Part shown: positions 42,406 through 44,166 of the stretch, one piece after another
How positions within the stretch are numbered: position 1 is the first letter of the stretch
Layout: each line of letters begins with the position of its first letter
Origin: Rhizobium sp. Q54
Lineage (GTDB): Bacteria > Pseudomonadota > Alphaproteobacteria > ATCC43930 > CGMCC-115725
Length of the DNA: 62,206 nt
NCBI GenBank assembly: GCA_945861155.1
Contig: CAMATN010000010.1
Location: 1-62,206 of the forward strand
Reading direction: 5' to 3'
Program-made: the position numbers and the translations under genes
The notes under the pieces: model-generated
Database searches by the model: none
Seen by the model: only the letters and a program-made list of their open reading frames with translations
What the model was told of the DNA's origin: nothing

Positions 42406-42620
42406 GTATCGTCTCCGACGTCGATGCCGCACGCGGGTTGTTGCTCCGTCATGGGCCAATCTGTCCAACATCTTAAGACTAACAATCAATCATGCGGGTT
42501 CGGTGGGGTCAAACACGCAAGGGGCGGCTGACCCCGTTGACCCTGTTGCTTGGCCGGTTGACGGGTGGCGGCATAGCGGCTAAGTCAGAGGCGCAAGATT
42601 GCCGCGGAAAGGAACACGAC

Positions 42621-43388
42621 ATGCCCGAGACCGCCCCGCTCAAGGCATTCTGGCAGCCTGGTTGAACTAGCTGCCTGAGACTCAAGGAGTTTCTCTCGGT
42701 CCGTGGGATCGAGTTCGAATCGATCAATATATTGGAAGACGCGGCCGGCCGGGCCGAATTGCAGCGCCTCGGCGCGCGCTCGATCCCGGTTTTGTCGCGC
42801 GGCGACGAATTCGTATTCGCGCAGAACATCGCGCAGGTCGTCGGCTTTCTAAAGCTCAACGAAAAGACCGGGCCGGTCTTGTCGCCGGAGCAGCTTGTCG
42901 GGCGAATGACGCGCTTTATCGACGCCGCACTCGTCATCATCCCGCTGATGCCCGATTCCAAGCTCGACACCAACGCGCCGAACCGGCCGCGCAGCTATCG
43001 CGCGCTGGCGCATCACATGTTCCGCATCCCCGAAGCCTTTGTCGAAGTGGCCGGCGACAAATTCTTCGCTCAAGGTCTGCCGACCGATGTGGCGAACCCC
43101 GGCGACATGGCGAGCACCGCGGCGCTCGCCGCCTATGGGCGCAGGGTCCGCGCAACCGTTGACGATTGGTGGCGCCACACGTCGGACAAATCGGCGCAGC
43201 AAACGGTCGAGACCTATTACGGCCCGCAAAAGCTGCACGAGGTGCTCGAACGCGCGACTTGGCATATCGGCCAGCATACCAGGCAATGGATGATGCTGCT
43301 CGAGATGTCCGGAATAGCCTTCGAACCGCCGTTGGGCGACCCCGATTTCGCCGATCTGCCGATGCCCAAGCAGGTTTGGGACGGCTGA
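42621..43388 (+). CDS. Glutaredoxin-DinB fusion with in-frame TGA at the CxxC position (candidate selenoprotein)
   Basis: The frame from ATG 42621 (AAAGGA 7 bases upstream) to the stop at 43386-43388 encodes 255 residues if codon 15, TGA at 42663-42665, is read through. Residues 7-80 are glutaredoxin-like: LKAFWQPG, then TGA-T-S-C-LRLKEFL, and a cis-proline loop with P56 (ARSIPVLSRGD). Family members I know have Cys at this position (FWQPGCTSC), so the TGA replaces the attacking Cys of a CxxC motif. Residues about 95-255 resemble a DinB-type four-helix domain with H131/H132, H215 and H219 as possible metal ligands. A hairpin with bulged U residues follows the TGA. Either selenocysteine is inserted (U-T-S-C) or the gene carries a recent nonsense mutation. 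No internal restart would preserve the redox site. ChaC, a glutathione-degrading enzyme, is encoded next. Confidence 0.65.
42674..42699 (+). promoter_or_regulatory. SECIS-like hairpin after the in-frame TGA
   Basis: The 26 bases CCTGAGACTC-AAG-GAGTTTCTCTCGG can fold with CC/GG, GAGA/TCTC and CTC/GAG pairs, a two-base U bulge (42690-42691) on the 3' side and a three-base loop AAG. The loop begins 18 bases after the TGA, within the range of bacterial SECIS elements. Against it, the loop lacks the G in its first two positions expected of the bacterial consensus. The fold was made by eye. Confidence 0.35.
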
Positions 43389-43419: not shown

Positions 43420-43506
43420 TGTCATTGCGAGCGCAGCGACGCAATCTCGGGCCTATTGTGCTCCGCTGATCGAGATTGCTTCGTCGCTCCGCTCCTCGCA
43501 ATGACA
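43420..43506. repeat. ATTGCGAGC-type inverted repeat overlapping the chaC start
   Basis: Left arm 43420-43448 (TGTCATTGCGAGCGCAGCGA and on) and right arm 43472-43506 (ending CTCGCAATGACA) are nearly complementary. The ATG inside the right arm, at 43501, is the likely start codon of chaC. A single arm of the same family lies at 4571-4599. Confidence 0.8.
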
Positions 43507-44166
43507 GATATAGAATCCGCTTCCGGCTACGTCTCGATCTATCCGGTCGATCCGATGCCGGCGGCGATCGCCGCGTTGCGCGCCGGCGACCGACCGGTCT
43601 GGCTGTTCGCCTACGGATCGCTGATGTGGAACCCGGATTTCGCGTTCGCCGAGGCGCGTCCTGCCTTTCTGCGCGGCTACCACCGCAGCTTCTGCCTCTA
43701 TTCGCGCGACTATCGCGGCACGCCGGAGCGCCCAGGGCTGGTGCTGGGGCTCGATCGCGGCGGCTCGTGCCGCGGCATCGCGTATCGCCTGCCCACCGAC
43801 CGGGTCGCCGAGTCGCTCGACCGGATCTGGGCCCGCGAGATGACCGGGCAGGTCTATCGGATGCGCCAAGTCGCGGTCAGCACCCCCGAGGGCGTGGTGA
43901 CGGCTCATGCCTGCGTCGTGCGTCGGGAATCGCCGGACTATGCCGGGCGCCTGTCGCTCGACGAGGTCGCGCGGCTGCTCGCCACGGCCGTCGGCGGGCG
44001 CGGCTCCGGCCGCGACTACCTCGCCAACTCGGTGCGCCATCTCGAAGCGCTCGGCATCAATGACGGCTTGCTGCACCGCATCGAAGCGCGGATCGCCGCG
44101 CTCTCCGAGCATGCCCCCTCCGGCTCGCCGGCCGCGTTACCGATCGCGTCGCCTTCGCCGCGGTGA
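43501..44166 (+). CDS. chaC: Gamma-glutamylcyclotransferase, ChaC family
   Basis: A 221-residue ChaC-type enzyme that degrades glutathione to 5-oxoproline and Cys-Gly. The substrate-loop motif YGSLMWNP is at about residues 39-46, with RGYHRSFCLYSRDYRGTPERPGL (split here as FCLYS, DYRGT, PERPG) and the catalytic Glu in WAREM. The start codon lies within the arm of a repeat; ATG 43555 is an alternative that would remove 18 residues. The neighbour upstream is the glutaredoxin-DinB gene, giving a thiol-related pair on one strand. The C-terminus (SPAALPIASPSPR) is a non-conserved tail. Confidence 0.88.
   Translation: MTDIESASGYVSIYPVDPMPAAIAALRAGDRPVWLFAYGSLMWNPDFAFAEARPAFLRGYHRSFCLYSRDYRGTPERPGLVLGLDRGGSCRGIAYRLPTDRVAESLDRIWAREMTGQVYRMRQVAVSTPEGVVTAHACVVRRESPDYAGRLSLDEVARLLATAVGGRGSGRDYLANSVRHLEALGINDGLLHRIEARIAALSEHAPSGSPAALPIASPSPR

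Follow-up and report, generated by a model that had tools for sequence, protein, structure and literature searches.

A probable selenoprotein gene combining glutaredoxin and DinB-type domains in Rhizobium sp. Q54 and other Alphaproteobacteria

Glutaredoxin and several glutaredoxin-like families are among the 119 prokaryotic selenoprotein families inventoried in 2026 (PMC13188914), and marine surveys counted a few selenocysteine-containing 'Grx' sequences (PMC2398784, PMC1088965). For Alphaproteobacteria, formate dehydrogenase was given as the sole selenoprotein in a 2006 survey (PMC1794560). Proteins of the DinB superfamily bind metal through conserved histidines, and bacillithiol and mycothiol transferases are among its members (PMC10950700). 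Here we describe a gene that joins a glutaredoxin and a DinB-type domain. The window is the whole stretch of 62,206 nt analysed, from contig CAMATN010000010.1 of Rhizobium sp. Q54, and the features of the gene are collected in Table 1.

The glutaredoxin-DinB gene is, with a probability of about 0.92, a genuine selenoprotein gene in which UGA is read as selenocysteine 15 (Sec15). This reading is based on the conservation of the TGA in nine families, the selenocysteine (Sec) machinery, and a conserved and covarying hairpin. Codon, hairpin and machinery are backed by sequence comparison, and from these we infer the insertion itself. In the proposed mechanism, SelB with Sec-tRNA (anticodon UCA) would bind the hairpin 37 nt 3' of the in-frame UGA, and selenocysteine would be inserted as the attacking residue of the glutaredoxin U-T-S-C site. 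The ribosome would then finish the 255-residue protein, whose C-terminal, DinB-type domain is probably metal-binding. A sequence-only reading had offered a selenoprotein as one of two alternatives, and this one is supported by the conserved TGA, the presence of selA, selB, selC and selD, and the covarying hairpin of bSECIS type.

Table 1. Features of the glutaredoxin-DinB gene (positions in the window)
Feature	Position	Strand	Remarks
Shine-Dalgarno-like AAAGGA	42608..42613	+	7 nt 5' of the ATG; direct reading
Glutaredoxin-DinB gene (probable selenoprotein)	42621..43388	+	255 codons and TGA stop; in-frame TGA read as Sec15
UGA, probable selenocysteine 15 in U-T-S-C motif	42663..42665	+	Cys codon in Cys-form homologues
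SECIS-type hairpin UCGGUCC-GUG-GGAUCGA	42696..42712	+	7 bp; loop GUG 42703-42705; 37 nt after the UGA
Glutaredoxin (thioredoxin-fold) domain	42639..42860	+	residues about 7-80; cis-Pro P56 at 42786-42788
DinB (S-transferase-like) four-helix domain	42873..43340	+	residues about 85-240
His132, first His of putative metal triad	43014..43016	+	invariant in 40 homologues
His215 (43263-43265) and His219 (43275-43277), HxxxH of putative metal triad	43263..43277	+	invariant in 40 homologues

Domains, neighbourhood and possible function

The frame opens with ATG 42621 and runs through 14 codons to TGA 42663-42665, which is followed by T-S-C and an open frame until a second TGA (43386-43388); readthrough of 42621-43388 gives a protein of 255 residues. 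All of these elements, together with the ribosome site, were described in the sequence-only reading and are found as described. The same reading had placed the TGA at the attacking Cys of a glutaredoxin CxxC, giving U-T-S-C, and both the Pfam match and the homologue alignment agree with it. Glutaredoxin (PF00462) covers residues 10-65 (4e-10, 40.2 bits against a cut-off of 22.9), and U/C15, C18 and P56 are invariant among the aligned homologues. The cis-Pro loop that had been proposed contains P56, which, like the His triad H132/H215/H219, is invariant in 40 homologues. DinB_2 (PF12867) was matched at residues 109-222 (1.3e-4) with 22.9 bits, slightly below the cut-off of 24.8, and 39 of the 40 aligned homologues of the window protein match it at E ≤ 0.01, in line with the earlier proposal of a DinB-like domain with a His triad.

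The AlphaFold2 model built from 40 homologues had a pLDDT of 95 and contained both domains. Residues 4-80 match glutaredoxins, the nearest solved structures being BC3987 and cGrx1; by sequence, no solved structure matches better than cGrx1 (E 9e-14, 31% identity, Z 11.6). We take PDB 7c10 (cGrx1) to be the Clostridium/Alkaliphilus oremlandii selenoprotein glutaredoxin. Residues 86-240 match DinB-family structures with Z about 15 (up to 15.2), and the fold matches of this part include mycothiol S-transferase, BstA, and mycothiol-dependent maleylpyruvate isomerase. A profile of the DinB part gave no match to PDB sequences at E ≤ 0.05; the support for the DinB link thus comes from Pfam, the single weak PDB match of the full-length profile (2p1a), and fold comparison.

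A glutathione synthetase is encoded in the Q54 genome. By analogy with related enzymes, we tentatively favour a glutathione-linked thiol oxidoreductase/transferase in which the DinB and Sec glutaredoxin domains would work together. The DinB domain would hold a low-molecular-weight thiol at a putative three-His metal site, comparable to bacillithiol and mycothiol transferases, and the Sec glutaredoxin domain would perform thiol/disulfide exchange, by which a substrate or conjugate would be reduced or deglutathionylated. Also by analogy, the selenoprotein could be a glutathione-dependent cis-trans isomerase or S-transferase of catabolic pathways and not a disulfide reductase, which we consider unlikely. 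Its structural match to mycothiol-dependent maleylpyruvate isomerase (2nsf/2nsg, Z 12.5-13.4) would suit such a role, as would the catabolic-type genes (acyl-CoA dehydrogenase, SDR, TPP-enzyme, amidase/isochorismatase/racemase) that adjoin some homologues. However, all DinB folds score alike, so the 2nsf/2nsg match does not single out an isomerase; moreover, no neighbour is constant, and the conserved UxxC/CxxC favours redox chemistry. In other lineages, no gene partner recurred in more than four loci, and the neighbours were mostly catabolic genes. On a plasmid of Roseomonas marmotae (L123 3330-7403), a Cys form lies in an apparent catabolic operon with genes for an isochorismatase-family protein, an AtzG-like protein, an amidase and a racemase, which hints at a pathway.

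A ChaC gene (about 43504-44166) adjoins the selenoprotein gene, as the sequence-only reading had noted, but the support that it drew from chaC for a thiol-related role is weak because this synteny was seen only within the genus. The neighbourhood was also considered as a guide to function and set aside, since chaC, hisC and the prephenate dehydrogenase gene adjoin only within the genus. Positions 43420-43505, between the selenoprotein gene and chaC, form an extended, imperfect inverted repeat, CATTGCGAG...CTCGCAATG (MFE −42.5 kcal/mol), which resembles dispersed palindromic repeat elements.

The UGA codon, its hairpin and the selenocysteine machinery

Alignment of homologues at residue 15, the check proposed in the sequence-only reading, returned either TGA or Cys. 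Counting the window, TGA is kept in 27 genes, which come from nine alphaproteobacterial families, and 15 other genomes of the class, with Cys forms only, have a Cys codon in its place; these counts come from family, order and class searches. The alternation is strictly between TGA and TGC/TGT, and each of the 27 TGA-form genes has exactly one in-frame stop, always the TGA at the Sec15 codon. Seven alphaproteobacterial MAG loci came out of a scan of species genomes; five of them cover the site, and all five have TGA. Beyond the 27 genes, the TGA form is also found in an Acetobacteraceae MAG (L028). Across the phylum, 398 sampled genomes yielded matches in Alphaproteobacteria only. Plasmids from Caballeronia, Variovorax, Roseomonas and Rhizobium, betaproteobacterial ones included, carry Cys forms under the annotations 'glutaredoxin domain-containing' or 'DinB family' protein. 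A single origin of Sec is compatible with the tree (p-AU 0.36), with three changes on a quick tree.

Two further observations concern single genomes. G345 (contigs C24 and C25) contains one TGA form and a second glutaredoxin-DinB form without the stop. In MAG locus L026 (1120-1200; also G022, L035), the homologue is truncated inside the SECIS-type hairpin, and the sequence upstream of the break is unrelated; this break is either an assembly join or real decay, and SelA was not detected in genome G022, which is 74% complete.

The codon-level alignment comprised the 27 TGA forms and 12 Cys forms. Among the TGA forms, synonymous sites hardly vary at codons +11 to +17, counted from the UGA, and at four of these codons any two sequences that share the residue also share the codon. 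This stretch ranks first among 264 seven-codon windows, with an excess synonymous identity of 0.36, and keeps the top rank after thinning to 16 genomes; in the Cys forms it ranks 225 and shows no excess. The invariant stretch corresponds to the hairpin UCG(G/A)UCC-GUG-GGAUCGA, whose pairing is found in 96.8% of cells in the TGA forms versus 36.9% in the Cys forms. Pairing in the TGA forms exceeds all slid controls; at two pairs both partners have changed and at others only one, and RNAalifold recovered the same stem unprompted.

The published bSECIS model has an apical loop of 3-9 nt with G in its first two positions, an upper stem of 4-16 bp, a spacer of 16-37 nt, and MFE ≤ −7.5 (PMC13188914). 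The window hairpin agrees with this model, having a 3-nt loop (G first, U second), 7-8 bp, and a 37-nt spacer at the top end of the published range. The eighth pair is an extra outer one in the window sequence (C42695-G42713). The 17-nt core of the hairpin folds with an MFE of −7.5, and inclusion of the flanks gives −10.8. The innermost pair is missing in 6 of the 27 TGA forms, giving a five-base loop CGUGN, and the isolated cores of two such variants reach −4.6 and −5.0 kcal/mol, short of the −7.5 of the model. Another hairpin just 3' of the UGA (about 42677-42693), seen in the MFE fold, was discarded as it is not conserved in other genera.

The Rhizobium sp. Q54 genome (96.9% complete) encodes SelA, SelB and SelD adjacently on a single contig, and a tRNA-Sec with anticodon UCA (tca) on a separate one. 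All four genes whose absence the sequence-only reading had named as evidence against a selenoprotein are thus present. The selB, selA, selD cluster lies at L086 8052-13656 on the minus strand (contig C40), and selC is on C23. The selD of Q54, the last part of an open frame of 758 residues, is a Cys form (RCGGCAAK). No in-frame TGA was found in the formate dehydrogenase alpha-type matches of this genome, the best of which has T-R-L-C-H at the expected Sec site. To judge from these residues, the usual Sec users, SelD and formate dehydrogenase, are non-selenoproteins in Q54; as both are Cys forms, the glutaredoxin-DinB protein may rank among the main users of the Sec machinery there.

SelA accompanies the TGA form in 25 of 27 genomes but the Cys form in only 3 of 15 (Fisher p = 3e-6, to be taken as indicative because related genomes are not independent). 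The two TGA-form genomes without detected SelA are 77-79% complete. Among family and order genomes without a detected full-length glutaredoxin-DinB copy, 11 of 32 have SelA. Co-loss of the Sec machinery with the gene was therefore not seen within the family, and these copy-less genomes probably have further selenoproteins.

The same results bear on other readings of the UGA. It is very improbable that the codon serves as a regulated stop or that a different amino acid is inserted there (e.g., Trp or Cys by a near-cognate tRNA), with the hairpin acting in readthrough or in selenium sensing. Release factor 2 competes for the UGA of established Sec genes too (PMC4513850), and the inserted residue is not readable from sequence alone; however, the strict alternation with Cys, the SelA association and the agreement of the hairpin with the bSECIS model all point to selenocysteine. 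A translation start 3' of the UGA, with only the DinB part made, is very improbable: a mechanical 218-aa ORF does begin at TTG 42732, but both TGA and Cys forms conserve the FWQP before the UGA and the entire glutaredoxin domain, and the ribosome site precedes ATG 42621. The nonsense mutation (TGC to TGA) that the sequence-only reading had set beside the selenoprotein, or a base-calling error, in an intact Cys glutaredoxin-DinB gene would need a single base change from the TGC/TGT of the Cys forms, but it is practically ruled out, because neither a fresh mutation nor a sequencing error is expected to recur in 27 genomes of nine families, across independent assemblies and with no other in-frame stop, next to Cys codons in 15 genomes and together with a conserved RNA hairpin that the Cys forms lack.

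Relation to known systems

Support is strong for selenocysteine and moderate for the function. The sequence-only reading had put the fusion forward as apparently undescribed, and our searches are in keeping with this. The DinB fusion is absent from the 119-family inventory, in which the word DinB is unused (PMC13188914); NCBIfam has no model over its cut-off for a glutaredoxin-DinB fusion, and no combination of DinB and selenocysteine in this sense was found in the open-access papers searched. Some of the marine Sec 'Grx' sequences might belong to the glutaredoxin-DinB family. Because its UGA can be mistaken for a stop, the annotation of the gene is likely to be wrong or cut short in many genomes.

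Reading the gene as a selenoprotein gene adds a widespread and apparently unlisted family to the bacterial selenoproteome of Alphaproteobacteria and links selenium to the DinB thiol-transferase superfamily. The Sec and Cys forms of one enzyme also provide a natural set, a test bed for why Sec persists. A broader and more speculative proposal is that this undescribed selenoenzyme family, common in Alphaproteobacteria, unites a Sec glutaredoxin and a metal-dependent DinB thiol-transferase in one glutathione-using enzyme, which would be a functional analogue of glutathione S-transferase made from different parts and a main reason for retention of the Sec machinery.

Like the Sec glutaredoxins (PF00462 with UxxC, e.g., cGrx1, PDB 7c10/7c12), the window protein has a Sec or Cys that opens the glutaredoxin CxxC; unlike them, described as small proteins (PMC13188914), it is fused to DinB and is alphaproteobacterial. 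UXX-star (NF041212) and the HUGP/GUXX-star fusion (NF045501) also have a glutaredoxin-like domain with Sec, and one of them is a fusion, but they have another fusion partner and no DinB; the window protein scored 28.1 bits against NF041212 (cut-off 66) and 19.0 bits against NF045501 (cut-off 325). With the DinB/S-transferase-like superfamily (BstA, mycothiol S-transferase, YfiT) it shares the four-helix fold and three invariant His at the expected helices, whereas the solved members compared have no glutaredoxin domain and its own DinB_2 score falls slightly short. Cys forms in RefSeq, annotated under glutaredoxin domain or DinB family names (e.g., WP_162571355.1, WP_207446294.1), have the same two-domain architecture at about 40% identity, with a Cys codon in place of the UGA.
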